From Owenia fusiformis (Eukaryota > Annelida > Polychaeta > Sabellida > Oweniidae), in NCBI GenBank assembly GCA_903813345.2, contig CAIIXF020000005.1, forward strand, positions 36,089,375 through 36,153,374: a stretch of DNA of 64,000 bases, given 5' to 3'. This document shows positions 35,501 through 62,400 of the stretch, in pieces. Under the pieces are notes generated by a model that searched no databases, was not told where the DNA came from, and was given only the letters and a program-made list of their open reading frames with translations. A program made the translations under genes and the position numbers. Numbering within the stretch: position 1 is the first letter of the stretch; the number at the start of each line of letters is the position of its first letter.

Positions 35501-38500
35501 GGCGCTGCAGTAATCTAGTATTTCACCATAATGTGTAGTTTATTATCTGACAAATGATTCTATGACATCAAAAAATTCAATGAAGGTAATGTTAGAAAAT
35601 TGAAATAGTTTATAGTTCATGACGAGCACATATTACACCTCTCACCTAGCTTATCTTTCAGATCTCAATGTCAGCTGTGGTCAGTAAATCATATTTGTAT
35701 CGTTAAAATTACAGTTATCATGCAATGAAATAGGTTGTCATAATAGTGGAAGAGGTTTTGTGAATTGTGTTCCAAAATTAAAAAGTATAATTTTGATATT
35801 TTTACTTCGGAATGTGTAATTATCCCAATGAACATGACAATGATATTTAAGAAACACATGGCAGCCATCTTGAAAGATGGCGGCTTTTACAAGCTATTTC
35901 ACAATTTTTGCTGTAACTTGAAAAGAAGTGGAGAGATTTTGTTCATATTTGATATGTAAATACTCCTAAGCGTGGTACACTGTTTTATGACACTTTGGCT
36001 AGAAGGGTGCCATTTTGAAAATGGCAACCATTTTTACGTTTTAGGATGACCCCAAAAATAATAGAGCAATTTTGTTCATATTTGATAAGTACAATATAAG
36101 GATTTTGTGAAAATGTCAACCATGGCTGTTCGATGGGATTTGCTACGCTTTGGCGTTGCTGTTATCTAGTTTCTACGGCAATCTACGTGTATTATTTAAT
36201 CTTCAAATTGACAATGATTTTATAAACTGATTTGGTAAATGTTTTATTCAGTGGCATTTGCAAATAACTCATGGAAGCTGTTGTTATTTGCTATTCATAA
36301 AATCTAGTTACAGCACTTGGTTAAATAATTGAAATATATGCTGCATACAAACTGATTCTTGATTATTAATTAGAGGAATGTGACTATTTAAATAACATAA
36401 TGTTAGCTTCAAAAGTATACTTCATGTTTTCCTTTGTCATTTTAACTTCAATTGTGGCATTATATTTGACAAGCAGAAAATTGATAAAACATGGCAACAG
36501 TAAACCCAGCATTTCTGAGCGAGAAATGTTTGGGAAGTTAGATAAATTCAAAACAAATGTATTAAACTCTGGATTCAAGGAACAAAGAGTACACGAGAGG
36601 TTGACACCATTTAAAATCAACTCGGAGGCAAACAGAAAACTTGTATTTTACAATAGACTACCAAAATGTGGCTCAAGCACAATGTTAACGTTATTTGGAA
36701 AAAGGAATCAAGTTTTTAAACTGATAAAAACAGATATATATAATAAACGTCAATTAGACGAAAAAGAACTATATGAATTTGTACATTCGTTCAAAATATC
36801 TTCGAAGAAACAGTTAATAGAACGTCATCTTTATTTTGTTAACTTTGAAATACATGGTTTGAGGCAGCCAATTTATATCAATTTAATTAGGGATCCATTG
36901 GACCATACTCTTTCGAGGTATTATTATCACTTTGAAGGGGAATCAATTAAGAGACAATTAAAAGGAATGAAAATCAAAACATTTGAAGAATGTGTAGGGA
37001 ATAATTTGAATAATTCTCTACCAATTAAAGGATGCTTTTTTCTTCAAAAGAATATGTGCTTTGGTTTTGTGGACATGATGAAGCGTGTTCCTATATACAA
37101 TTATTGACCTCTCTAGAGGTTTACTGTCAAAATTATATCCCGAGACTGTAAGCCGAGACCGTAGGTCGAGGTTTACAGTCGAGGGATATAATTTTGACAG
37201 TAAACCGAATGGAGAGGTCTATAATTGTTTTGTTAGTCCGAAGAATATCTTAGATTTTTCTGACCCTTGAAGTTGACTTGAAGTTGGATCCAGACCCTCG
37301 AGACGTTCATGTTGTATTTCAGTATATCGGCAGTAAGTTCACTCAATTGAGTCAAATTACTCTCCTGGGCGAAGTCCACTAAAAGCTTTGTACAAAGTTT
37401 TAGATTTTTCTTCGTATTTTGACTGTCTTTATTCTCTAAGAGACTAACAATATCCTCATCTTCAACATTTTTGAAACGGCTAGTGCTAACGGCGGCCATT
37501 TTATCGTCTGATAATGACGTCATTTTAGTGGAATGCTGGGAATATTATTCACCGGCAATGCATTGCGCGGTGTACAGTTAAAATTATTCACCGCTCGTTG
37601 ACCAATCAAAATCGAGTATTTCAACTGAGGTACTAACAATATGGATTATGGACTAGCAAAGGCCAAACGAAACATCGAGAAATATTACATGCTGATTGGC
37701 CTAACTGAGGAGTATGCTGAAACTTTACAAGCTTTAGAACTTATGCTACCGTCTTACTTTAAGGGCCTTAGTAAGGTTGACATTGATGCTACCTGGAAAA
37801 ACAAAGTACCTGTGTCGAAAAAGATACGACCATCTGAAAAAATAACCCAATTTATCAAAGAACAATTGAGATATAACTACGAAATATACAATTTTGTAAA
37901 ACAAAAATTCCACATCACCTTGAAGAGCTTGGGAATACATGTATATGATAACAGTTCACTTTGAAAGAGTTGGTGATTTTAATAACTACATTAATCATCA
38001 TAACACTAACTGAAGGAAAATGTTTTTTTTCAAATATTTTTAAACACACTTTGAACAACAAAATGTTATAGCCGAAGTTTCTATATAGGTTTGGAATTTC
38101 GCTAACTCTTGTTTTTCAAGGAATTTTAAGAGTTTTGCATATTAAACCTCTAATGACTTACTATTCCTACTTTTTAATAGCATATTTGAATTCAGTGAAA
38201 AACAATGCTTGTAAGATGTTCGATGGGATTTGCTACATCTTGTTGCGGTTTTCTAGTCTGTATCGATAATGATGGCTTACAGGAAAATGATCATAAAATT
38301 CATATGTTTGATGCCAAATAAATTTTGACTCATGACATGTCCAAAACTAGTAAAAATGTATTTTCATTTTGTCTCAACTCTCGCATGGATAAGGCTGGAT
38401 TTTGAAATACATGTAGACGCAAGCACAGTTTACAACATTCAGTCCATTGCCCAGCTTGTTTTTCATGGTCCATTGTCAAGAGTGAAAACTGACTGTGATT

Positions 38501-41353: not shown

Positions 41354-42807
41354 CTAAAATGTTTCATCAAAGTAATAATTATAGCTCCAATTAGGTTCTC
41401 TTGGGCGTATCAGGAACTTCATTTCCTTGAAGGAATACCAGGCATTGTTTAGTTCTTTGTTTTCTTTCCGTTCTGCATCGCTGAAAAGTTCACCAGGCCA
41501 TCCCATCCAACTCATACATCCAAACTTTATGTCACATTTGGTTCCATTCACATACTGTCCAAATGGGTTCACAACACCACAGTAATCTCGGTCCTCGTAA
41601 TCGATATTTGCTTCTTCATAGATGTCATCGGCTGTACCATGAGGTTGGTAATACCACCATGCACCTCTACGTAAAACAGAGCATTTTGGACCATACTTGT
41701 ACATTTCATTCCCATGATCCCAAGTAGTAAATGGGTTGTCGATATACCCATAATCATAATGGTAATAGTGGTAGTCAGTCATAACATCTCTACCAGAGCC
41801 TCGGAAATCTGCTATTCTAACCCCAGTATTACCATTATCGTATGCAGGCATTTGAAAAATGTAATATTCTGCTGTCTCAGTTTGACCACTCCATGTTGTG
41901 AACTCCAACTTTAGCACATATCTTTTCCTATTGTTCTCACTTATCAATGCTGCCAAGTTATCAAGGCCAATAAAATATTCTCCAGGTGGATCACCGAAAC
42001 CAGCTTTATATTCTGCCCAAGTACGATAAAAATCGACACTCCCATCAAATCTATGAGCCACCAGCAACCAGTTTTCCTCACATTGAGCTTTGAAAGATCC
42101 TCCATTCGGAAGCTGTATATTATTGATGCCAGGCTTCTGTTCAATACAAGGTACATCCGAAGGGAGCTCTATGGGAAGTGGGCCAATCATTATTCTCATT
42201 GCTTTGAATGAATAGAACCCATTGTCTTTTCCTTCAAGAAGTTTCTCTGGCCATGCTTTCCAGCTCATACAGTCCATTTCTTTTTCACATTTGGGTCCAT
42301 TATTATATCGTCCAAATAAGTTTGCTTTACCGCAACAGCCCCACCACCATCCATTTGGATTTATAGGATAGATTTTATCAGAATACTGTCCTTTCTTATA
42401 AAGGGAATTACCAGCCGAGCCTTTATATTCTCCCAATCTTAAAGTATACCAGGAAGGCCTATACTGTAGGTCCCAATCAACATAGTCTAATGGGGTGACA
42501 TCAAACTTAAAATAGTCCGCTGTTCTGGTTTCATTTTTCCAAGTTGTTAACTCAATTCGCAGCATATATACATCTTGTGCAGCTGCAGAAGCAAGATTGT
42601 CAAGTCCAATGAAGTACTCTGATGGGGGATCTCCAAATGGAACACTATACTCTTTTTGTTCTTCTTGCGGATCGTGGAAGTCAACACTACCATCAAACCT
42701 TTGAGCAACAACCAGCCATTCTGAGTCACAAACTGCTAGGAAACTTGCACCGTCATCTGTTCTTATAAGATTAACACCTTCTGACTGTTTGTTGCAATTG
42801 TTAGTAC
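41354..42807 (-). CDS. Fibrinogen-domain protein coding exon 3, both FReDs (1454 nt)
   Basis: The acceptor is ATTAAAG after a T-rich tract; the stop is at 41354-41356. One exon encodes both fibrinogen-related domains, so the duplication occurred without introns or lost them. Trp- and Tyr-rich insertions in the second domain (YHYYHYDYGY) make it longer than the first by about 45 residues. Confidence 0.92.
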
Positions 42808-45800
42808 CTTTAATGATACAATAAAAAGTTTTGATGAGGTCCATTATTCTAAGATTTTAATCAATTTAAAATGCAATTGCAAGTACTTTCTTATTATTAT
42901 CAACATTGTTATCATTAACAAAGACATAATTTCAATTTAGATCTAAGTGTATATAACATACGATAGACATACCATCAATTCGAGGAATCTTCAACTGTTG
43001 GATGTTGTTGACAATCCAGCCCAACAATTTTTGTAGCTTCTTGAACTTAGGGTAGAATCGGTTCAACTTTTTTTCAATCCTCTTTGCCTCTTGCAATCCT
43101 CTCAATGCCTTGATGTTTTTACGATAAGTTTTTGTAATATTGAAAGCTTTGAGTAAGTTGTCATTCATGTAAATGAAGCCTACTCTCTTCTCCCAATACA
43201 GCAGATCAAAATAGAGTTTGTATCTAATTTCATAATCGAAATCATTGTGTATGGTGTTGAATGTATCAATCGTCACGTTAAATATAGCCTCAGAATCATT
43301 CTTCATTATACTCAACAGTTGTATTCTGGTGCTATGCCAATCTGTTAGTTGTTTCCAAAACTTTGTTAAACGTTTGCCAATTTTGTGCATCATGTGGACC
43401 GAGTTCTCAGCTATACGTTTATCTTCTTCTGGTATAATCTTTGCATATTCTTGGACTACCTTGGTTGTAGCTTCTAGGAGAGGTTGTGTATTTTTGGGCT
43501 CTATCTTAAGGAACATCTCTGTCAGTTTGAATTCATTCAGATAGTTTACCTTAATGCTTGCTCCTTGACACTGCACATTGCCTTCATCGATTACAAATAT
43601 TAAGCAACACACGATTCCAGAGAACAGGCCTGAAAAATTAGGGTGTGTTTTTCATTTATTCATTTCAAGTTCTATAGTAAGACATCTGTACTTGAAGCAG
43701 CTTAAACAGAATATTTTCTCAGTTAATATTTATTATCCCATCGAACGAAGTTCGGAGGGATATAGGGAACGCCTCCATCCGTCCGTCCGTCCGTACATCC
43801 GTCCGTCCGTCCGGGCAATAACTCAAATACTGTTGGCCCGATTTTGTTAATATTTTGTACACATATATACCCTATGGGGGTAGAAGTTCTGCTCGAAAGC
43901 CAATTTTCAAAATGGCCGCTCATTTCAAAATGCGATTTTGTTCATATTTGGTATGTGAATACTATAAACATTGCACACTGTCTAAAGACACTTTTGGCAG
44001 AAGGCGGCCATTTTGAAAAATGGCTGCCATTTTAACATATTTTACTATAACTCGAAAAGTAGTGGAGCGATTTTGTTCATATTTGGTATGTGAATACTAT
44101 AAGCATGGCACACTGTCCTATGACACTTTTGGTAGAAGGTGGCCATTTTGAAAAAAGATTTGAAAAATGGCCGCCATTTTAACGTATTTTACTATAACTC
44201 GAAAAGTAGTGGAGCGATTTTGTTCATATTTGAATTGTGAATATTGTGAATACTCTAAGCATGGCACATTGTCTAATAAAATTTTGGGGAGTAGTCGGCC
44301 ATTTTGAAAAATAGCCACCATTTTTATGTGTGTTATTTTACAAGTACATGTGTGCGACTTTTCAAAAATTTTATAGGTGGCTACTTAAAAGCATATTATT
44401 TTTTCTGATGACAACTTGGCTAGTGAGCAACCATTTTGAAAATGGTGGCCTTTCTGGTGTGTTGTTTTATTATATTTGCTATATATTTCGTTTGTAAAAA
44501 TGCCAGCCATTTCTGTTCAATGGGATTCGCTACGCTTTGGCGTTGCCGTTGTTCTGGTTTGGTCTTGCTTTTTTCTCTAATTTCTCTATTTATGATTTAA
44601 GTACCTAATTAACTACTTAATTTAGTACCTAATGTATTGTATGTGATACTAGCTAAGTTTCCAAAACTTATATTTTGGTTTAATTCTATTACTATCAGCT
44701 GTATTATGGATATTATATGATAGAGTTTTTAATGGAGTCATTCAAATAATCAAAATTTAACGAATCAAATAGGAGGTACGATAGATAATTATAGAAATAA
44801 CTTTCAATTTAATTGGGCAGAGCATATTTTCTAACATCAACAGACTTGCCAACCTAAAATGAAAAATTTTGGGGAGATTTAAAAAAATTGCGGTACTTTT
44901 ACGGGAGTTTTTTTCAAAATCCGGGAGTTTTTGTGGGAGTCTTTTGATAAAAAGCGGGAGTTTTTACGGGAGATCATTGAAAAAAAACGGTAGTTTTTAC
45001 GGGAGATTTAAAAAAACAGGAGTTTTTGCGGTAAATTTTGAAAAAACGGGAGTTTTTACGGGAGATTTTTTAAAAAAGGTATTTTTCGCGGTAAATTTGA
45101 AAAAACGTGACTTTTTTACGGAAGTTTTCAGAAAAAACGTGACTTTTTGCGGTAGGTTCTGAAAAACGGGAGTTTTTACGGTATGTTTTGAAAAAAAGGG
45201 AGTTTTTGCGGTACATTTAAAAAAAGCGGGAGTTTATACGGTAGATTTCTCTTTAACCAGTCATCAAGAAATTCTGAAAATTTTACACATTGTCAATTTA
45301 ATGGTCATCTTTTGAATGGTAACAATATAATTTAAAATCGATAAATATACTTTTCTCTATATTGCTTTAGAAAACACATTGGACACTTCTTTTGTTCTTG
45401 AAATCATATGTTCGGAATGAAATGAAACATCTATCCGAACCTCATTGGGAATATTGTATTATACAAAGGAAAGTTTGGTGGATTTAAAAAAAAGTATCTT
45501 GTTAATGAAATTAAAGGTTTGTCTTTATCTATTTCGGGGGTTTTTGTTTTAATTTTTTGAATACTTTTTGTTAAATCAACCAAGATTTCCTTTGAACAAC
45601 TATAATATTGTGAAGTCTAAGAAGATGTTGTATATGCTATTTTGTTCAAACTAGCTTCGGAAAGATATTTCATTTCATTCTCAAGAAATGGTAAAAAGGA
45701 ACAAAAATCAATTGCACTAAAATCAAAAAATGTTAACAAAAACAGTAATATAAAATATATGTAAATTATTTTCACATTAAATTGTTGCCAATCAGTCAAC

Positions 45801-47988: not shown

Positions 47989-48083
47989 CTATTTTGTTGG
48001 AGGTCTCGTAATGTTCTCGTTCCAATCTGGCCAGACTTCCTGTTTAATCCTCTCCACGTAATCAACCAAGTTTTGACATGACT
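47989..48083 (-). CDS. FAXC: FAXC coding exon 6 with stop (95 nt)
   Basis: Acceptor TCTTCCAG. Encodes SCQNLVDYVERIKQEVWPDW and a short tail NENITRPPTK before TAG. NLV-Y-ERI---W-W is the conserved C-terminal helix of the family. Confidence 0.94.
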
Positions 48084-51000
48084 CTGGAAGACAGAATAAT
48101 ATTATAGTATAAACAAGGATAACAAGGAACACTGTTTACAATATCGTATCTAAAAATCAAAAATGGCCATATTTACATTTACCCAGAATGCCCAACCACT
48201 ATGCAGTTCAGGACTCCTACTATGAAACATTTCTTTAAAAACTATAAGTAATTTGTCTGAAAATGTGTGAACTGCCGTCACTATTGCCACGTATCATGCT
48301 GACAACAGTATCATACTTATTATGTACGATAAAAAGGAAAACATAGATGTGAATACAAGAACAAGTTACAAGGTGATATGTGACAAAATGTCCAGGCCCG
48401 TAGCCAGGATTTGCCAAGGGGGTTCACTTTTTTGAAAATTCCAGGGGGGTTCACTTTTGACAATTCTGGTCCAAAAGTGGCCAAAATCACTTAAAAAGTG
48501 CTCAGAATGGTGAAAACTGCATGATTTTGAAGGAACTTTTGACGGGGGGGGGGGGGGGGGGGGGGGGGCTACGGGCCTGATGTCACTATATCAAACTGCA
48601 ACACTTTCATTGAAAAATTCAAAATGGCTGCCCAGTAGAAGCATGAAGAGTGAAAGAGTCAGCCATTACTCAGTCACTGCCATCAAAGAATTTTAAGACC
48701 CAAAAGCATTTATTCATCATAAATTACCTGTCACAAATTTCAGATGAGGAGAGCCAGGACTGTGGTAGAGAATTTGAGCCAGCATACCAAATATCGCACA
48801 GTCAACTTCAGATATCTTATCTCCCATTAGGTAATTTTTTTCACCTAAAATAACAAGTATGTACAGTATAATTAATAGTATCTCAGAGCATTTTGGGTAT
48901 TTTATTGAGGTAAAACAATTTTGAAATATACAACAACATGCTTTGGAAGTTCATGGTCAACATGCTTGCAAAGTACCAGTGTGTGATTGATAGGAAATGC
49001 ATTCAATGGAGTTAGGAAATGGTTCAAATGTCTAATTACCCATGTGATTTTTACTCAATTGAGTAATAATAACTCAACAAAGCATTAACATGCAAAATTT
49101 CACCACCTACCATTTGTTACAGACACGCTGAACACCAACCACCAAATGCTAAACACTGTCCACAAAAAAGTTGGAGACTATTGTGGTGGTTACATAATAC
49201 AGTGAACCCTGTGACACATTTTACCCCATTGACAATTTATTCAAAGAAAAGAAACTTAGAATGCAAATACAGATGTACTGTATGATAAGATCTAATTTGT
49301 AGATTGAGAAGTTTAGTTAAAAAAAATATGCACCCCTAGCTGTGACAAAGTTAGCATGATTTCAATATATTGTTCGTGGTTTTATAGATCTTCATTTTTT
49401 CATTCATATAACTGAACTTTCTATTTTCAGAAATAACTGTTATTCAAGGTAATAAAAAGTGACTCAATTTCTAATTCTGATCCCAAAATATCCAAAAACA
49501 GCTGATAAATTAAAATAAAAGAATCTGTTTGTTGCACCAATAAATGGTATACAGCAATTGCCTTGAGTAGATCTAACGCAACTTTCGATATTTTCAGACA
49601 AAAGGTTCATACCATCAATTTACTAGAGTGCTGCTGACTCGATAAAAGGCTGGCGCTGGCTAGAATTGTCTATGGTTCTAGCCAGGATAAAGATACCAGT
49701 TCTTCAACTCAACAATGGGAAGAACTGCTCTACCTTAGTGACTAATATGTCATGATATGACATCTAAAGAGTCGATAAAAGATATATATAATTGATAATG
49801 TAAGTCACATTTTTTAGTTGAGGGAGTATTTAGAAGATGAGCCACTTTAACCTTGTAAGGTGTTCATATAATAACTAAGGGAAGGCATCAAAGGTCCAAT
49901 GTCGGATCAGAAACTAAATAAATGTAGTTTTGACTTTGACTCCCCCCTTCCCCCACAAAACTAATACCATGAAAGTTGATTGCTGACTTCCGGTTTGAGA
50001 ATTTGAAAAATTATTTCTAAAAACGATCTAGTTTTTTTGTTAATTCTTATCATAATTTGTGGCTTTTAAAGGGACCCAACACCTTACAAAACTTCTTAAC
50101 GGAGAGGAATAAGGGAAAATGCTTGCCGGATTCTGAATTTGTGTATTTTCTAATGATTTTTCACCGTCTTAGAATTTCAATTTTTTTCTTTTGAAAAAAT
50201 GAGATTTGCATTGTTTTCCAACTAGACAAATGAGTAAACATGAATAGCTCGAAATCTAACGGTGAGATTTTGTTTTAAAAAATCATGGATATCAAGGCTA
50301 AATATAGCTATACAATAAACATAAAAAAGCAATGCTTGGACTCTTCATATTCACACAAAAAAATAATTAGTAAATGAGGTTTGATATTTGTGAGAATAAG
50401 TTGTACGAGTCGCAATGCTCTACAAACATCAGACTACAGGGTGGATTAGGATCAATGACACACATAAAAATTAATTTAAAAATATTTCATGATAATTATC
50501 TCAAACAAAAGCAGTTAGCGAAGGATACATTTCATTACACTCAATAAATAGTTATCACTTTTGACTATATATACATATCTCATGGGAATGTATTTCCATC
50601 TGCTCAAGATATCATATTTTAGCTTCGAAAATCACAATCGTTGGATAATACATTTGTCTCAGAATGATAGGCCACCCTGTAGCAATGTAGCTTTCACTTG
50701 AAGTGTACCCTTGAGAATAATGAACTTACTTTCAAATTGGTCTTGCTTTTGTGGTGTATGTGGCTTTTTAGCAAATCTGCCACGCTCATTTCTTTCCAGA
50801 ACCATCTTGTTCACATGTAACACTAGGCTATACGCGCATGTATAGACAGATGACATAGATATACATATAAATTATATATTGCACCTGTACTTACTTACAT
50901 GGGAATATTCCCTTTGGAAAAATGCAAATGCATGAACATATATTTTCATCTTATATATGACTTCAAGCTAACATATTATTTCATATTTATATTTTCATAG

Positions 51001-54000
51001 TTAGTCTAACATAAATAATAGATCCATGAGAACAATATTCATTGTTTTCTTAAAAATTGATGGGTTTACTGTGAATTCAATAAATTACAATTTGCAAGGG
51101 GTAAGTATACTGTATGACCTTAGTTGCAAAGTACTGTTTATATATGCAGCTCAATAGCATAAAATATGTTGAATGAAGCATATGGTATGGATTAGTCGTG
51201 TGACACACAAACTGACCAATACATGAGGGTATTAGCTACTTTTCACAGAAACCAAAGGAGGACAGTGCTTTTATTTCAATTGGGAGCTTACCTCCACACG
51301 ACTGATCATGTGACCATGGTGTTGGGTCCCTTTAACAACTTCAGATAGAATAGAATCCATTGAAATGATCTTGATGAAGAAAGCATCAGCTAAAATCTTT
51401 ATTTTTAAACCATTCCTAGACATTTGGAAACAAAATTGCAAAAAAATTGAAATGTTGAAATTTGTCAGATAGCAAATTGAAATGGCTTTGATCCCCCTCC
51501 CCCCTAACTAGATTTATTTAGTTTTCGATCCGGCATCGAACTATTGATGCCTCCCCCTAAGTACATGCACTAACCAAGGAAGTTCGACAGTGCAGATAGA
51601 TCTTTTAATGAAATTTCCTTGATTTCACAAGGAGTGTGTCGACCAATTCCATGTCCCCATGTGGATTTTTTGACCATTCGACCAACATACCAAACCACAA
51701 AGGATGGTACCGAGATTAATTGCTTTATGGCTTTTGTTTTATCTATGTACCAGCGCCATGATGCTATGGCCCTAAAATTAAAAGGTGGTGCTTTAGTACA
51801 GAAGAATATGAATCAGCATGCCATTATAGAGGCACTTCAATGTGAATTGTCTGTTAAACAGGATTTATTTTGGAAAAATGACCTGGTTTTGTCTTTTTTA
51901 TAAAGTGATTTCTGTCTTATACATGTATTCACGGGTTGGGATCCATCGTTTTCAATAGCTTTTGGTCCTAGCATTATTAAACTTCAAACAGAAGTAAAGG
52001 TTACCTGGGAATTAAATACACATTGCAGGGAGTAGGTAATTGTCTTATGTATAATAAAACATATGAGTTAAAAAATAAATGTTGATGTTTTATGAAAAAT
52101 AGCATGCTCCATCATAGGGGACAAATTTTTCGATCCCAACCTATGATACTGCCTCTTTAAAAAAAAGTTCCATGTGTTAATAAGCTAGCTAAAGCAGGGT
52201 CATTTCCATTCTGAAAATTAAGTAAAATGATGTGTATTAATATTATTACATGTCTCCTGATGAATTAATGCCTCATATTACAGCATGCACTAAAGATACG
52301 ATGAACTGAAATTTAATGAAGTAAGGTAGTGTTTTGGGGGTGATTTAGTAGATGTGGGATTAGTGTCGCCATCTATGCATCAGTCAGTCACCTAACTGCC
52401 CAGCCAAAGCATCCAGGTCACCACGGACTATACTCCTTCTTTCCTCCACGGAGTGTCGTCCCATCCCATGACCCCAAAGCTCTAGTCGAATCACCAATCG
52501 GAAAATCCGGGTGAATATCCACAAATATAAGCCCTTATAAGGCAAAATGTCCTCTAACACTGTTAAATCATCACCAAATGTTTCCGCACACATACCCCTA
52601 AGCAAAACACAGATGGCAAGATTTAGTTCAATAGCACATTATAATTTTATTTTAGTCTGGGTTTGATGCTGTTTCAAGGGAATTCCACAAAAGTTTCAAC
52701 AAACTAGTGTGTGGGGATGTTCAAGCCATATATATAAACACTATACAGTATACGTAGTACTACATTATTGACAAGCAAAGGAACTATTATGAGGTTTGGA
52801 AATCAAGGAGAATTGGCTCCCAGGACCGAAATTCGATATTTTTCAACAATGAAAACATCAAAAAGTCGTTTTTTCTGAAATTATAACTGACTATAAATTC
52901 AAAATAAACAGTCCAAAAGATTTGAACCAATATCTTGATCAATTCTTGTGAGTTTTAGAATTTTTCGTTTGGTAATAAGACCAAAATTCACGATTCAAAT
53001 GTTGAAGTGAACAAATGGCGACTGTTTGAATTCGAATTTTGTAATCACGACATACCCATATATGGCAAAATATTGATGTAGCACTCTGGGAAGCAATCCT
53101 CCTTGTTTGGGAATATACGCCTGCATAACAATTAACGATACAAGAATATTATAGACATGTACCTTGTTAGATAACACTTTACTGTTAGATTTTATATTTT
53201 AAGCAAAAGGTGTAACATTGGGAAAACATTGAACAATATACTATAATAAAAATGTGATACATTAAAATTCTAATATCTTAGTCATAATATAGTAAGAAAC
53301 AACTACCAGTAAAGGTTTTCCTCAGTCATTTTTTGGAATGCCCTCGCGATTCCCTTCTCTGATTCTGTTAAGTGAGAGTTGAGATCGATATCCAGTTTCT
53401 TATTCAAGTAGTCAATACAGAACTGTGAATCTGCGACAGACTCCCCATTGTACATTATCCAAGGGGTCTTTCCCTTTTTTGACATCTTGTTTGAGAGATC
53501 ATTCTGAAAAGTAAAACAATTAATTATGTTAGAAATACAAAGAAATAAAGGGTTAACAAGAATACCTGTTTTTAACTTCATGTACTTGAAATAAGCTGGT
53601 GGTGGCTAGTGCTTGCAAGATACCCCATAGGACAAAAGTAGAGAGAACATAGATGATTCCCAATGTAAAGATGAATATCTAGAGATTCATCTCTATATAA
53701 AGATAGGTTTGCCTATGGGCTTTCTCTAATTGAATAGGTTTGTTTTTGAATCTTTGCAAACAGAAGCAAAAAATAATAAGCAAACATTTCTTTGATACAT
53801 ATACCTCTCATTGAAGCAAAGTAGGTATGCACCCACACTGCTTGAGATTTTGGAAATAACCTTGCATCTTCTTGACAACTTAAAAAGTCATGAAATATAA
53901 AATGTTATATAGCCCACTTCAGAAATAAACCTGGGGAGACCACTGTTTTGTTTATGTTTTTTCTTTGGCAACTAATGCTTTCCCAACATTTTTAATTACC

Positions 54001-57000
54001 TTGCACTTAATGCTCTGTAATATAAGTAGACAATAATATTAACAGTGGTCAGAAATTAGGTCAATTTTGGTGTTCTCATATAAGTTGAGAAGACTGTGGT
54101 CATAATGTGGTCAAATGTGGTCATATGTGTTCCAATTTATATCTTTATATATCAAATGTCAGAGACACCAGAAAGCAGTAGAGATAAACATTGGTTTTGG
54201 GTAGCCTTGTAAATTACCCAAATGCGAGTAGGTAGTTACCAGTTTCACCACCAGGTGGCTGATTCGGGTCAATTAACATGGCAGGTATACAAGAAAGTTC
54301 CCTTAAACTTGAATATTATCAACTTAAGTGGCTCAATTTTCATATAACCCTTATGCGTCTGATACTTATACTAATGAAAATATGTCCAGTAAAGCAATAT
54401 ATTATCTGTCCACTAAAAGAAAAGATATTTCATTTTTAGTGATTTTATAGCATGGGGTCTATGGGGAATCTCCCCGAGCTAGAAGTCACATTTTCAAAGA
54501 AAATTAATTTTTCAAAGTTGATTAACAGTTTTTAAAACCACATTTCTAGATGTAATTTTAGATGTAGATTTCAAATATGATATTACTTTGATAGTGCTGT
54601 CCCCAGCTCTGATTTCGGTGATCGGCTAGTATAAAAGGTTTGAGGGTATCATTTTGTTTCAGACACTCGCTAGAGTAAATTATCTTAACTTGAGTAAAAA
54701 TGTGTGGTAAGTAAATTCGCTATGGGCAGTTAAAGAGGCGCCATCTATTCATTTTCAAACAGGGGGTAGGGGTATAAAATAATTTTTAACACATTTTAAT
54801 AGTAAAATGACATTGAAATACTAATAAAATCTTATCAAAAACATTATTTACAATCAGTATGAATTTTCTTGTGTGGATTAGGGTGAAAATAAGGGCATAT
54901 CTTGAAATTCACTACAGGGGCGCCACCTATTTTCGTACTTCTACCACGTGTAATAACTTATTTTAGATTTGTTAAGGTAAGAAATGTACTGAAAAAAATC
55001 ATTCTAAAGGATCTATATATGTAGATACCACATACTTAAAATTGGATCAATAGCTTATTTACCGGGGGAGAAAAAAATTATTGAAATTTAAAATTGTGGC
55101 ATCATGCAGGATAGGGGTGACCATATCTCACATGATTAACTTCCAAAATATGGAGCATATGTATCTCAAATGTGGTCAAAATGGTGTATGTACTCTTGCT
55201 TTGTCATAATATTACTAATAAGAAGTAGAAAAATGATTGTACAATTTCCCAAAATATTAATTCTCATTTTGGCTTCTGACGTCCCAGGGGTGACCATATC
55301 TCACCTTGATAACTTCCAAAATATGGAGCATATGTATCTCAAATGTGCTCAAAATGGTGTATGCACTCTTGCTTTGTCATAATATTACTAATAAGAAGTA
55401 AAAAAAATGATTGTACATTTTAAAATATATTAATTCTCATTTTGGCTTCTGACGTTCCAGGGGTGACCATATCCCACCTTAATAACTTCCAAAATATGGA
55501 GCATTTGTATCTCAAATATGCACAAAATGGTGTATATAGTCTTGTCTTGTCATAATATTACTAATAAGATGTAGGAAAATGATTGTACATTTTAAAAAAT
55601 ATTAATTCTCATTTTGGCTTCTGACGTTCCAGGGGTGACCATATCCCACCTTAATAACTTCCAAAATATGGAGCATTTGTATCTCAAATATGCACAAAAT
55701 GGTGTATATAGTCTTGTCTTGTCATAATATTACTAATAAGATGTAGGAAAATGATTGCTCATTTTTAAAAATATTAATTCTCATTTTGGCTTCTGACGTC
55801 CCAGGGGTGACCATATCTCACCTTAATAACTTCCAAATTATGGAGCATATGTATCTCAAATGTACTCAAAATGGTGTATATACTCTTGCTTTGTCATAAT
55901 ATTATACTAATAAGAAGTAGGAAAATGATTTAATTTAAAAATTTAATTTCAAAAATTTTAATTTTAGCTTCTGATGTCCCTGAATAACTTCTAAAATTAT
56001 GTAACATATACAACTCAAATATACCAAAAATGGGGCATATAGTCTTGCTTTGTCAAAATGCTATTCATGAGATGTAAAAAAATTATTACACCTTTTTTTA
56101 ATTGAAATTTTCATTTTAGCTTCTGAATCTGACATCCCAGGGGCAATTATATCTCACTTTGATATAACTCTCACGATATGCAACATATGCATCTCAAATG
56201 CGTGCCCAAAATGGTATAAATATAGTCTTGTTTTGTCATATTTATTGGATTTATGAAATCAGAAGTTCAGAATTTATGGATTTGACTGTCTCCCCTGAAG
56301 GGTGCAGCTACATATAGCCCAGAGACAATAAGATCTACTTTCAAATATTTGCATCTTCTCCCCAAACACTCCTTATATTACAGGAACAATGGACGATAAG
56401 TCTTTTGCATGCCTTGGATGCAACATCTTTTGTATACTGGTAGCCTATCAGTAGTGTGAGTAGCCTAGCCTCATTTACAAAAATTGGCCCCTTAACCCCA
56501 AATCTGACCCGAAATTTTGAAAACATCCTGAAAAATTAGGCCTAAAAGGCGCATTTATGCCCAAACATACACCAAACTGTCCCACTGCTAAATTACAAGG
56601 GCGATAAGTCACTTCTAATCCTGATTGACCTTCTCAATGCATGGTTTGTCATGTTGTGCTATATTGTTATTGCCCATTCTCAACAATTGTATTCACTGTA
56701 TGGCCTACCGTGCCAAGAATAATGCAATTGTTCCAAAAGCTAAGCTCTTCTTTGGGACCCTAGAAGTGTGGGACATCACAATCATAGATTAAAATTTCAT
56801 TACAATCAATGTATGTTGTATGACAAACATGCAAACTAGAGAATGTTAATGTGGCTAGAAAGATTTATCATTACAAAGAGCTCATTTTCCCATATTTTAC
56901 ATACTCAAAATCCCTTAATTCAGTGTATAATCCAAGGTGCATATATTGCAGGCCACAGGATAACATATTAACAGCTTACATTAGCAGTTGCCATTACTTC

Positions 57001-60000
57001 ATAAATGGAGTAAAATACTCCCACTATTGACAGGCTAAAAGGATTCCTGTATGGATTACAAAAGATGTTGGGTCCAATGTATGCAAGGGAATAATCTCAT
57101 CCATTGTACTTGTAAAGGGTGTTTGGGGAGCAGATGCAAATATTTGAAAGCAGATATTATTTGCCCTGAATTATATGTAGCTGTAGAGGAGACAGTCAAA
57201 ATCCATTGATTCTGATCTGTTGATTTCATGATTCTCAATAAATATGACAAAACAAGACCATTTTGAGCACACATTTGAGATGCATATGTTGCATATCGTG
57301 AGAGTTATCAAGGTGAGATAGCCCCTGAGACACCAGAGGCTAAAATTAAAATTTAAAAAAAATGCAATCATTTTTCTACATTTCTTTAGTAATATGAAAA
57401 AGACAGGACTTTTCTGAGAATATTTGAGGATTATATGTTACGTATCTTAGAAGATATTATTATATGATGCGATATGATTACCCTGGAACGTAAGAAGCTA
57501 AAATTAAAATTTTTGAAATGTATAATCACTTTTCTACTTCTTATTAGTAATAGTATGACAAAGCAAGAGTGCATACACCTTTTTGAGTACATTTGAGATA
57601 GATAATGCTCCATATTTTGGAAGTTATTAATGTGAGATATGGTCGACCCTGGGATGTCAGAAGCCAAAATGAGAATCAATATTATTTTAAATGTACAATT
57701 TTTTTTTTTTTACTTCTTATTAGTAATATTATGACAAAGCAAGAGTACATTCACCATTTTGAGCACATGTGAGATATATGCTCCATATTTTGGAAGTTAT
57801 TATATTAAGGTGAGATATGGTCACCCCTGGGACGTCAGAAGCCAAAATAAGAATTAATATTATTTTAAATGTACAATCATTTTTTTTACTTCTTATTAGT
57901 AATATTATGACAAAGCAAGAGTACATACACCATTTTGAGCACATTTGAGATACATATGCTCCATATTTTGGAAGTTATCAAGGTGAGATATGGTCACCCC
58001 TAGGACGTCAGAAGCCAAAATGAGAATCAATATTTTTAAAAATGTACGATCATTTTTCTACTTCTTATTAGTAATATTATGACAAATCAAGAGTACATAC
58101 ACCATTTTGAGTACATTTGAGATACATATGCACCATATTTTGGAAGTTATCAAGGTGAGATATGGTCACCCCTAGGACGTCAGAAGCCAGAATGAGAATC
58201 AATATTTTTTAAAATGTACAATCATTTTTCTACTTCTTATTAGTAATATTATGACAAAGCAAGAGTACATACACCATTTTGAGTACATTTGAGATACATA
58301 TGCTCCATATTTTGGAAGTTATTAAGGTGAGATATGGTCACCCCTGGGACGTCAGAAGCCAAAATGAGAATTAATATTTTTTAAAATGTACAATCATTTT
58401 TCTACTTCTTATTAGTAATATTATGACAAAGCAAGAGTACATACACCATTTTGAGTACATTTGAGATACATATGCTCCATATTTTGGAAGTTAATAATGT
58501 GAGATATGGTCACCCCTATCCTGCATGATGCCACAATTTTAAATTTCAATAATTTTTTTCTCCGACAGTACAAAAGCTATTCATCCAATTTTAAGTATGT
58601 GATATGAACATATATAGGTCCTTCAGAATGATTTTTTTCAGTACATTTCATACCTTAACAAATCTAAAATAAGTTATTACACGTGGTAGAAGTATGAAAA
58701 TAGGTGGCGCCCCTGTAGTGAATTTCAAGATATGCCCTTATTTTCACCCTAATCCACACAAGAAAATTCATACTGATTGTAAATAATGTTTTTGATAAGA
58801 TTTTATTAGTATTTCAATGTCATTTTACTATTGAAATGTGTTAAAAATTATTTTATACCCCTACCCCCTGTTTGAAAATGAATAGATGGCGCCTCTTTAA
58901 CTGCCCATAGCGAATTTACTTACCACACATTTTTACTCAAGTTAGGATAATTTACTCTAGAGAGTGTCTGGAACAAAATGACACCCTCAAACCTTTTATA
59001 CTAGCCGATCACCGAAATCGGAGCTGGGGACAGCATCATGACTGAATTTTGAATTTTTAATGACGTAAATCAAGATTATTTCTACTCGCATCTGGGTTAT
59101 TGAAATGACACACATTAATTGGCAGACTAGGGGTATGCTCCTGTGCCAAAACATTTGATGTTTAGTAAGCAATGTTCCACAGCTGGATGACTCTAACTGC
59201 ACTTAGCTTCATTCAAGATGGTTGCCAAATTTCTTTCGATTTCGATAAACCTCTGATTTCAGCTAAACTAAGTTGAATCTGGATTCCAAATGTTTTGCCA
59301 TGCAAACTACGTAATAAAGCTAAAGTTGTAAACAACCACAGATAGATGCTCTAACAACCATGATTTGGGAGAATTTTAAAGAAAACAGCTTCACTTAAAA
59401 TGACTCTAACTGAATTTGTCATCATCAAAATCAGTTAGAGTCATTCTAAGTGAAGCTTTTTCTTTTAAATTCTCTGATATCACGGGAGTGTGGGCATTTA
59501 CCGTATTTGAGTTTTTTACAATCCTAGTTTTATTAGTTTGCATGGCGAAACTTTTGGGATCAAAATTCAGCTTAATTTAGCTGAAATGGGAGGTTTGTCG
59601 AAAACGAAAAAATTTCGGCAACCATCTTGAATGAAGCTAACAGGAGTTAGTAGTAAGGTACATTTAGTGCAGTCATTTCTTAGTTTTATACCAGGAGCAA
59701 TACTTTAAAATCTTTCAAGTGAACACTCTGAAAAATTATGGATTAGGACCCCACTTTGGCACTTTTTAAAAATGTTAAGCTCATTTTCTAAAACGAGGAT
59801 CTTCTTTTTCTCAAAGCTTTTTCAAAAGGAACACCACTGGGACTGGTCAGTGTTTATATTGTTCAATGGGAGATAATAAATTTGGGCCGTGAAAATGTGT
59901 GTACATTGGGAGATGTTCAGGTTGGAGGGGTGTTTGGATAGGCAGGTTTTACCGTAAACTGAGGTGAACAAAGGGGAGGCAAAATATTATTTTGGATTTT

Positions 60001-62400
60001 TTACTCAAAAATTGAGTCCTATTCCAAAAAATGGAACCCTATTTTTTAAAGTCATGTCCAACATTTTCTGGCTCTATATCAGCATAAATACCAACATGTT
60101 TTGTAAATGATTTCAAAATGGTATAAGGTCAACATAACATCTCAAGATGAATGTACATGTAATAATAAATAGCCTAAAACATGGTGTTTTTTACCTCATA
60201 TGGTATTTTTGCCACACGCAAATAAGTCTCCAGCTTTAGGGGAAAGGGAGACAGACTGGGGGCATAGGGACCTCTGCTGAGCTGGAACAGTATCACAGTG
60301 TCCCTTGGGTAGTCAGTGCGAGTACTGAAAATATATAAATATTATGAATTAGCTCATAGTGAAATACATGATCTAGCCAAACAATGGAATGTTCATTTTG
60401 GCAGCATTAGAATGTATTATAAGGTCAATATCAGTAAGCAAAGCTTTACACAGGTTTTACACTAATCATTATTCAGAGCATCGCTATTTTCAAAATTTCA
60501 TAACCAGAAAAATATGGTTTTATATGACTACATTGAAAACAAGGCATTAACATGCAAATTTCCCCACCTGCTATTTGTTACAGATGCCAAGTGCTAAAAA
60601 CCAAATACCAAAAACCAACTGTCAAAACAATATGTCACCACTTGTGGTGGTGGTGACATACAAACCAATGCCTTAACCCTGCATTCATTTGCAATGCTAA
60701 ATTTATACTCATACATGTTTTTTCTTGCAACTGAGTCTACAAGCCTATTATTTTGGAAAAGTATTTGAATCATCAAATTCATATTTTACACTGCATGTTT
60801 ATTTTCTTTCAAACATCCCAGACATAACATAACAAGACTGTTTACCTGTTTACCAAAACCAATACATATAGTTGAAATGAGGGTCAGAAAATGACCCTAT
60901 TAGTACCACAGATTGAATATACCATTGAGAAAGGAATAATGATTTTACATTACAGTGTATTAAAGAAATTTGGTGGTTACAGAGTTGACCAATTAGTGCT
61001 ATCATGAGCAGTGGGCAATTTTGTCCAAAATTTTATGGACTTTTTTGAAAGTAATATAAAATAAACAAGGCATTTATATGCACTATGTCACCAATTGCCA
61101 TTTGTTATTAACGCAAAATGCTGGACTCCAGATGCCAAATGCCGAAAAAGGAGGATCATAACAATGTGTCACCACTTTTGATGCTTCTAGATAACATTAT
61201 TGTTAACCTACTCTGAGCTACCTGTGTAGTTTCAAGCAACTCATTATGATACTTAAGGATATTGATAAAAGATTAATTTCCAAATTCATAATTCCTTTTT
61301 TTAGATAACATGATCAGATGCTCATAGTAACGCCCCAACTCCCCTTCCTTTTTTTATCTTATAGGGCCCAAGTATTTGAAGTACCAAGAGTGTCCAATAA
61401 TCAAAATTCACACATTACAAATAATTACGTTTTGTAGTTTTTAGATGTGTATCAAACATTAAATTATGTTATATTACTTTGAAATCTGCAGACTTAGCAC
61501 ATTGACCCTGATTCACAACCTGTCACCCACCACTCGATTATTGGAGCCCTTGGATGTATATACTTGTAACCAATTCACTATTAAGTAACCGGATGCTACT
61601 ATTAACATAACGGTAAAATAGTTGGATACAAATCAACCTCCTTCTGGGTGAAAATGATGAAAATTTCATCCGAGGGAAGTTCATCCATTTTGTTGTAAAG
61701 ACGTAACGTCAACCAGGTGGGGACCAGTGCTTTAAATCAAATCGAGCCTCGGATGAAGAGTCAATTCAATATTCCATTCCCGATAGAATATGTGCCTGAA
61801 CATGCCCCTTTTTGTGATGGCCTACCTTAATCAATTTATTGACATGCAAAACTCCCCATACTCAAAGTATGACAAAAGCTATGAATCAGTTTGTATAAAT
61901 GTTTTACTAATGTTTGACCAAATATTGAACAAATAAAGATTTCTTTTCATGGTTCAACTTACGTGAATGTTATTTTTTCACATGTATTCACTGAGGTCAC
62001 AAAATAGTGATTTATCAAAAGAGGACGAAAATGTATTTATACAAGGCCTAAGTCATCATCAAAAAGTTTCATGTTAAAAAAAGAAATACATTTTATATTT
62101 GCATCCTCCTAATTTTTTACGTCACTTACATTATAGGGATAACGTTAATAATGCATAGCCTGGAGATTCTTTAATTCTGAGTAATTTATTAAAAGTCAAA
62201 GACCAATTCTATGCATTGTATTTTGGTAATCGACATATTTTGATGAGCAATACCAAGTGATAGTGGTAACCTTGGCTCTGCAAATGATGTTCATTTTATT
62301 GATTTGATGTTAAATTTTTTTTCTTGTAATTTATTATATCAATAATATGCAGGCATGTTTTTATAACAGAAATACTATCTTACCTTGAACAACATGGCAT
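47989..62400 (-). CDS. FAXC: Failed axon connections (FAXC)-like GST-fold protein, alternative exon 4
   Basis: Exons in transcription order are 62400-62384, 60324-60195, 53503-53307, then either 4a (52597-52392) or 4b (51771-51575), then 48844-48728 and 48083-47989. Phases agree; the product is 253 aa with 4a or 250 aa with 4b. The thioredoxin-like N-terminal half has SLSPFPLKLETYLRVAKIPY, GKTPWIMYNG and VADSQFCIDYLNKKLDIDLN. The GST C-terminal-like half has WGHGxGRH, NYLMGDKISEVDCAIFG and LVDYVERIKQEVWPDW. These are hallmarks of the FAXC/fax family, related to metaxins and GSTs; Drosophila fax acts in axon growth and C. elegans relatives are cadmium-responsive. No transmembrane segment is present with the exon 1 chosen here, unlike vertebrate FAXC. 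Intron 2 holds a large foldback element. Confidence 0.9.
48393..48579. mobile_element. CAGGCCCGTAGCC-family element with a 25-G run
   Basis: CAGGCCCGTAGCCAGGATTT at the left, GCTACGGGCCTG at the right, opposite in orientation to the copy at 47706. It contains a run of 25 G at 48544-48568. Lies in FAXC intron 5. Confidence 0.78.
48728..48844 (-). CDS. FAXC: FAXC coding exon 5 (117 nt)
   Basis: Acceptor TTATTTTAG, donor ACAG|GTAATT. Encodes EKNYLMGDKISEVDCAIFGM through HSPGSPHLKFVT, the GST C-terminal-like core, with the family's MGDK and D-x-x-x-FG elements. Confidence 0.94.
49080..49198. mobile_element. GTGGTGACAT-family element, diverged
   Basis: TTTCACCACCTACCATTTGT at the left and TTGTGGTGGTTACAT at the right, with CCAACCACCAAATGC inside. 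Lies in FAXC intron 4 (with exon 4b used). Confidence 0.55.
49884..51551. mobile_element. 1.7-kb imperfect palindrome beside FAXC exon 4b
   Basis: Outer arms: GGCATCAAAGG with CGGATCAGAAACTAAATAAA on the left, and TTTATTTAGTTTTCGATCCG with TTGATGCC on the right. Inner arms TTAAAGGGACCCAACACC (50066-50083) and GGTGTTGGGTCCCTTTAA (51318-51335) are perfect inverted repeats. No coding frame recognised inside. Confidence 0.65.
51575..51771 (-). CDS. FAXC: FAXC alternative coding exon 4b (197 nt)
   Basis: Acceptor AATTTTAG, donor CTTG|GTTAGT. Encodes AIASWRWYIDKTKAIKQLIS, then VVWYVGRMVKKSTWGHGIGR and DLSALSNFLG. It matches the FAXC family at the RW motif just after LYW and at WGHGIGRH. Entry and exit phases equal those of 4a, but including both exons would break the frame. 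Confidence 0.85.
52392..52597 (-). CDS. FAXC: FAXC alternative coding exon 4a (206 nt)
   Basis: Acceptor TTGCTTAG, donor TTAG|GTGACT. Encodes GMCAETFGDDLTVLEDILPY through WGHGMGRHSVEE and DLDALAGQLG. It occupies the same position and phase as 4b. It is less like the vertebrate FAXC segment at its start than 4b. Confidence 0.82.
53307..53503 (-). CDS. FAXC: FAXC coding exon 3 (197 nt)
   Basis: Acceptor TACTTTTCAG, donor TG|GTAGTT. Encodes KGKTPWIMYNGESVADSQFC and ends AFQKMTEENLYW; the Trp codon is completed by G at the start of exon 4a or 4b. Confidence 0.94.
54595..59035. mobile_element. 4.4-kb foldback-type element with arms of 172-bp tandem units
   Basis: Ends TGCTGTCCCCAGCTCTGATT and its near-complement at 59016-59035. 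About 520 bp of outer arm is unique in each half. Then come direct 172-bp repeats: in the left half TTCTGACGTCCCAGGGGTGA recurs at 55274, 55447, 55619 and 55791; in the right half the same unit is inverted, about seven copies at 57300-58510. The centre (56230-57290) is also an imperfect inverted repeat. No transposase frame was recognised. This architecture is that of foldback (FB/Galileo-like) elements. Lies in FAXC intron 2. Confidence 0.85.
59193..59650. mobile_element. 458-bp palindromic miniature element
   Basis: CTAACTGCACTTAGCTTCAT at the left; the complement of the right end reads CTAACTCCTGTTAGCTTCAT. Pairing continues through AAGATGGTTGCC and beyond. A second hairpin, ATGACTCTAACTG / CAGTTAGAGTCAT, sits at the centre. 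Confidence 0.8.
60195..60324 (-). CDS. FAXC: FAXC coding exon 2 (130 nt)
   Basis: Acceptor TATTTTCAG, donor GAG|GTAAAA. Encodes DTVILFQLSRGPYAPSLSPF and the KLETYLRVAKIPYE helix of the thioredoxin-like domain. Confidence 0.93.
60540..60662. mobile_element. GTGGTGACAT-family element
   Basis: AAGGCATTAACATGCAAATT and CACCTGCTATTTGTTACAGA at the left, ATGTCACCACTTGTGGTGGT at the right. Lies in FAXC intron 1. Confidence 0.6.
61068..61192. mobile_element. GTGGTGACAT-family element
   Basis: AAGGCATTTATATGCACTAT and GTCACCAATTGCCATTTGTT at the left, ACAATGTGTCACCACTTTTG at the right. Lies in FAXC intron 1, about 400 bp from the previous copy and in the same orientation. Confidence 0.55.
62384..62400 (-). 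CDS. FAXC: FAXC candidate coding exon 1 (17 nt)
   Basis: ATG CCA TGT TGT TCA AG followed by GTAAGA. AG plus T from exon 2 gives Ser, so the protein would begin MPCCSSTRTDYPRDTVILFQ. Phase and donor fit, but another 5' exon outside the window is possible because vertebrate FAXC has a longer N-terminus. Confidence 0.5.

Follow-up and report, generated by a model that had tools for sequence, protein, structure and literature searches.

A single FAXC/metaxin-type gene on the minus strand of contig C5 of Owenia fusiformis carries two versions of exon 4, designated 4a and 4b, which are probably used one at a time; this reading is based on the genome sequence. The gene has a GST fold and lies in the region 36089375-36153374 of the contig (genome of 498 Mb in 525 contigs). 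This whole stretch of 64 kb is referred to as the window, and its own position numbers are used below.

Gene layout and splice borders

The features of the locus are as follows.

60195..60324, minus strand: exon 2, start of the GST N-terminal domain, DTVILFQLSRGPYAPSLSPFPLKLETYLRVAKIPYE; borders read from the sequence
53307..53503, minus strand: exon 3, remaining GST N-terminal domain and most of helix 4; last bases TG; PF17172, E 1.5e-17
52801..53105: dispersed repeat of ~305 bp in intron 3
52392..52597, minus strand: exon 4a, 206 nt; conserved C-terminal half WGHGMGRH...DLDALAGQL, without Arg-Trp
51575..51771, minus strand: exon 4b, 197 nt; retains Arg-Trp and WGHGIGRH
48728..48844, minus strand: exon 5, GDKISEVDCAIF segment and helix 6; PF17171, E 1.7e-9
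47989..48083, minus strand: exon 6, C-terminus with TAG stop; 45% to the paralog across 20 residues

Exon 2 is 73% identical over 37 residues to the corresponding exon of a paralog on contig C7. Because the entry phase of exon 2 is 2, the start codon is expected in a first exon further upstream; this exon was not found upstream of 60195-60324. The first-pass annotation had placed 4a and 4b in one gene rather than two, and this held: tblastn with each exon gave no copy of exon 3, 5 or 6 beside 4a or 4b, and neither tblastn nor, for exon 4, a profile search revealed extra copies of exons 3 to 6 in the 64-kb window. A second haplotype or locus copy usable for polymorphism was not found in the genome.

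The coordinates, the AG/GT borders and the lengths of 206 and 197 nt (both 2 modulo 3) given to 4a and 4b in the first-pass annotation were reproduced. As had also been claimed, both exons enter in the phase that completes the TGG codon begun by the TG of exon 3 and leave in the phase that joins a G to the GT of exon 5. The chains 3-4a-5-6 and 3-4b-5-6 are both open to the common TAG. The expected loss of frame when both exons or neither are used was confirmed: joining exon 3 to exon 5 yields '...LYW' with a stop at the junction, and 3-4a-4b yields '...GQLGP' with a stop two codons on. Only products with a single exon 4 would encode the full protein, since neither or both lead to a stop within two codons of the junction. 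Exons 4a and 4b are adjacent, similar in length and equal in entry and exit phase, and each has splice sites, which are the features of mutually exclusive tandem exons. The intron that separates them is 620 nt long.

We collected AG...GT candidates throughout the 64-kb window that were 180-230 nt long and 2 modulo 3, with site scores at least as high as those of the weaker of 4a and 4b. Two of the 23 candidates (12 on the minus strand, 11 on the plus strand) are open in phase, namely 4a and 4b; this count is a base rate and not an independent p value, because the splice matrix holds textbook frequencies and both the length range and the score threshold derive from 4a and 4b themselves. With this simple matrix, both sites of 4a outscore those of 4b, the acceptor of 4a stands at the 97th percentile, and the donors of 4b and exon 3 are weak, ranking at the 90th and 92nd percentile of GT sites. 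Of 1040 overlapping 200-nt intron windows, 1.2% reach the G+C content of 4a (0.47) and 3.8% that of 4b (0.41).

These splice data bear on a different use of 4a, for example as an alternative first exon of another transcript whose product would run only from inserted helix 4b (see below) to the C-terminus. An in-frame ATG near the 5' end of 4a (WGMCAETF) would permit such a transcript, but it would need neither the good acceptor of 4a nor its exact phase after exon 3, and we regard it as very improbable. The reading in which one gene uses either 4a or 4b after exon 3 is preferred.

Other sequences were noted in and around the introns. The ~305-bp repeat of intron 3 recurs with 89-91% identity at no fewer than 39 further places, distributed over contigs C1-C12 and C151, among the 40 scored of 4253 candidates. 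A 65-nt segment at 53056..53120 on the minus strand, '4x', was considered as a third copy of the exon. It is 2 modulo 3, open in phase, has AG/GT borders and matches 4a in ILPY-G, and lies outside the candidate range of 180-230 nt; it was rejected, with 50 of its 65 nt being the edge of the dispersed repeat and no profile match. The 4a-4b intron contains a weaker repeat match (75%) at 51947-52147, to a single C7 place. Between exons 2 and 3, the intronic region 54800-58820 harbors near-identical open frames on opposite strands (54817-54966, plus; 58664-58813, minus) and ILASDVPGVTISHL-type frames, which suggests that a tandemly repeated element is present there as a large inverted repeat. The open frame at 41357-42856 (minus), 500 residues long and matching the fibrinogen C-terminal domain (PF00147, E 2.5e-46), represents a neighbour gene on the same strand as the GST-fold gene, and an open frame at 36370-37104 on the plus strand has a weak sulfotransferase match above the cut-off (PF03567, 24.4 bits against 22).

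Homology of the two exons and constraint on 4a

In a tblastn search of the window, 4a and 4b were the sole mutual match below E 0.3 (E ~1e-6; 30% identity over 61 aligned residues). To score them independently of each other, an outgroup profile of the exon-4 segment was built without 4a and 4b from 27 rows, that is, the paralog and 26 bacterial relatives (27-41% identity) from a scan of bacterial and archaeal genomes. Scanning of the window with this profile recovered 4b at 46.1 bits and 4a at 29.1 bits, and the next match was no better than E 0.64. Against shuffled sequences, 4b scored 47.9 bits (maximum of its reported shuffles, 971 of 1000, 8.1 bits) and 4a scored 29.9 bits (maximum of its reported shuffles, 841 of 1000, 6.8 bits). 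Whole-genome searches up to E 10 with 4a gave no match beyond 4a itself, the paralog (E 0.011) and 4b (E 0.23); those with 4b gave 4b itself, the paralog, 4a and one place on C6 (E 0.57).

We consider misassembly or coincidence a hardly conceivable source of the second exon. Exons 4a and 4b are not one exon assembled twice, because most positions differ, and the genome yielded no further copy of either; the two open candidates among 23, together with the profile matches, make chance unlikely.

The homology is unevenly distributed along the exon. In global alignment of 4a with 4b, the score was reached by 0 of 5000 shuffles for the whole exon and 0 of 5000 for the C-terminal half, and by 567 of 5000 for the N-terminal half. 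The same division was seen for 4a against the paralog (0 of 5000 for the C-terminal half, 937 of 5000 for the N-terminal half), and for 4b against the paralog no shuffle of 5000 reached the score in either half. By the outgroup profile, the C-terminal half of 4a scored 25.3 bits and the N-terminal half -0.1 bits. The shared order of motifs noted in the first-pass annotation therefore stands from WGHGxGRH on, in the C-terminal half, but does not extend to the N-terminal halves, for which 567 of 5000 shuffles are as good. The initial 40 residues of 4a appear either to have diverged past recognition or to be of other origin; a whole-genome search up to E 10 found no source for the N-terminal part.

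The closest paralog (C7:2901000-2908500) has one exon 4 of 188 nt with phases as in 4a and 4b, and no second exon 4 was detected in its stretch with the exon-4 profile, in which the paralog itself is a row. Exon 4b matches the paralog exon throughout (42% identity, 65 residues, 62 bits), and the match of 4a is confined to its final 34 residues (38.5 bits). An Arg-Trp pair five to seven residues into exon 4 is found in all 27 outgroup rows (26 bacterial and the paralog); it is present in 4b and absent from 4a. The full-length match to the paralog exon and the retained Arg-Trp make 4b the probable canonical exon, typical of the family, and 4a probably a derived version.

This assignment is likely but not proven, because several scores partly favour 4a. 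In 20 exon-4 columns, 60% or more of the outgroup rows agree on one residue; 4b retains this residue in 12 of these columns and 4a in 10, and in two of the latter 4b lacks it. The 4a isoform also scores higher than the 4b isoform against StyI (51.4 and 46.5 bits) and against the Pfam families GST_C_2 and GST_C, and it scores lower against GST_N_4, GST_C_6, Tom37 and GST_C_3. In a tree of exon 4 (29 rows, 72 columns), 4b groups with the paralog (95/94), and 4a is placed beside two bacterial rows on a branch of 3.65 (median 0.32). None of three alternative placements of 4a was rejected (with 4b, p 0.434; with the paralog, p 0.415; all three together, p 0.433), and the tree is uninformative on the origin of 4a.

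We examined whether 4a, or less likely 4b, could be a silent or recently dead duplicate that is skipped, so that the gene makes one protein. The missing Arg-Trp and unrecognisable N-terminal half of 4a, its very long branch in the tree and the single exon 4 detected in the paralog stretch all fit such a history. On the other hand, 4a runs for 69 codons without a stop or frameshift, for which the chance is ~1.2% in intron-like sequence and 1.2-2.4% in neutral drift copies (23-33% identity); in simulated drift from 4b to 33% identity, with substitutions only, 1.6% of 2000 copies stayed open. The constraint on the C block of 4a and its splice sites, which outscore those of 4b, also argue against a dead duplicate. 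In the C block, 4a and 4b differ with pS 0.78 and pN 0.44 (Fisher p 0.02, from rounded counts), and the codons differ for 9 of the 14 residues that they share; for 4a against the paralog, the values are 0.70 synonymous and 0.40 non-synonymous. These codon comparisons show protein-level constraint on the C block of 4a and 4b in the past, with which recent loss remains compatible. Overall, a dead duplicate seems unlikely, and we continue with two exons that would each be used.

The segment encoded by exon 4 in the GST fold

The assignment of the gene to a FAXC/metaxin-type GST fold was upheld, as GST_N_4 and GST_C_6 exceed the curated cut-offs in both isoforms. GST_N_4 (PF17172, cut-off 30) scored 104.8 bits in the 4a isoform and 110.8 bits in the 4b isoform, and GST_C_6 (PF17171, cut-off 28) scored 74.5 and 80.1 bits, respectively; the joined proteins used for Pfam scoring have one extra residue at the exon 2-3 join. 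The gene thus appears to be of FAXC/metaxin type, and its naming as FAXC over metaxin or another animal relative is putative. FAXC proper has an N-terminal membrane segment ahead of the GST domain.

GST_C_6 was detected at eight more places in the genome (C1:23.81M, C7:24.14M, C7:24.39M, C7:38.49M, C9:12.19M, C9:12.20M, C10:18.07M and C10:26.56M), which suggests that this type of family is expanded in the genome. Five of these places have QGIGRK- or QGVGRK-type motifs and another exon layout, and these loci (L009-L013) were left out of the outgroup. The best-scoring bacterial record, CAMATU010000061.1, is a contig assembled from a metagenome and filed under the name Klebsiella pneumoniae. It clusters with a groundwater MAG of the Gammaproteobacteria, and its species name may be a binning error.

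For the position of exon 4 in the fold, we used an AlphaFold2 model of L040, one of the bacterial relatives, computed with 20 additional rows (mean pLDDT 92.1). The solved fold closest to this model is StyI (PDB 9QD3, TM 0.88), followed by chains of the mitochondrial SAM complex and LigF. By alignment, exon 4 corresponds to L040 residues 105-176, and the elements concerned are listed below.

L040 85-111: helix 4, with the invariant Arg110-Trp111 at its end; only this end lies within exon 4
L040 114-124 and 130-151: inserted helices, between helix 4 and helix 5
L040 158-176: helix 5, preceded by the rest of the GHGxGRH turn; exon 4 part

In PMC10452860, extra helices are reported between helices 4 and 5, lying over the glutathione site in metaxin models and blocking it, and the legend of its Figure 4 states that FAXC has the same inserted helices, named 4b and 4c. 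The L040 helices 114-124 and 130-151 would correspond to helices 4b and 4c. Identical positions between exons 4a and 4b number 2 of 25 before helix 4c, 5 of 23 within helix 4c and 8 of 20 in helix 5; the end of helix 4c already contains the opening residues of the GHG motif. By homology to the model, the difference between the exons would be concentrated in a lid made of the end of helix 4 and helices 4b and 4c. Mapped by homology, the exon reaches from the final turns of helix 4 through the whole of helix 5, so that the swap would come close to exchanging one structural element. The first-pass annotation had proposed two proteins with different helical surfaces. This is supported insofar as there are two in-frame versions whose divergence centres on the lid; helix 5 and the GHGxGRH turn are retained in both.

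Proposed lid switch and related systems

It is possible, and we propose it tentatively, that the exchange of 4a and 4b replaces the helices over the old glutathione site and the adjoining Arg-Trp, with the lid of 4a remodelled and possibly of other origin, to give two proteins that differ in the pocket or in a partner surface. A splicing factor would pick 4a or 4b by tissue or stage, and wrong products with both exons or neither would be removed by nonsense-mediated decay. Use of 4b would provide the family-typical lid, with Arg-Trp at the end of helix 4. Use of 4a would retain helix 5 and the GHGxGRH turn under a strongly different lid that lacks the Arg. The likeliest effect of exon choice would be a change of lid above the ancestral glutathione site, which may affect substrate access or partner binding, while the remainder of the protein stays constant.

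As to how the two exons might exclude each other, a steric block is improbable, since the 4a-4b intron, at 620 nt, is seemingly long enough for splicing. Competing RNA duplexes of the docking/selector type were searched for between the last 500 nt of intron 3, the 4a-4b intron and the first 600 nt of the 4b-5 intron. The best energies were reached by 6, 1 and 0 of 12 shuffles, and none of the duplexes was convincing, including that with 0 of 12, because the shuffles were few, three comparisons were made and conservation was lacking.

The arrangement resembles known mutually exclusive tandem exons, which are adjacent, similar in length and identical in phase, are included one per transcript and exchange a domain segment; one-per-transcript use is here predicted from phase and frame. 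It differs from them in that homology is demonstrable in the 3' half only and that no steric or RNA-structure mechanism was found. Among insect GSTs, GSTD1 of Anopheles gambiae swaps C-terminal exons. Alternative splicing is reported for GSTD1 and GSTS1 of A. gambiae (PMC1761136) and for GSTD11, GSTZ2, GSTT3 and GSTO2 of Drosophila (PMC4195677). In these cases, a GST-fold gene likewise yields several proteins via alternative exons around a common part, but these genes belong to other GST classes, and in the present gene an internal cassette would be exchanged between common flanking exons. Frame and decay terms are absent from PMC9013439, and active-site residues are absent from the text of PMC8552685, bar a reference.

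The closest comparison by family is with FAXC and the metaxins, with which the gene shares GST_N_4 and GST_C_6; helices inserted between helices 4 and 5, as in PMC10452860, are seen in the model of the bacterial relative. No description of an alternative exon 4 in FAXC was found in the titles and abstract starts of openly licensed papers on FAXC. The best match among solved structures is the StyI/IsoI epoxide glutathione transferases (PDB 9QD3; NF049950), with E 3e-11 for the 4b isoform and 1.1e-12 for the 4a isoform, and StyI has Arg-Trp at the aligned place. However, the 4b isoform scores 116.7 bits against NF049950, below its equivalog cut-off of 300, and identity with this enzyme is not supported.

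The kind of splicing is already known; the refinement proposed here is a swap that affects mainly the lid, between a probably canonical exon and a remodelled one. If a single protein body does carry either of two natural lids, they would offer a ready test of the role of the lid, be it in blocking glutathione or in the selection of a substrate or a partner such as metaxin 2.
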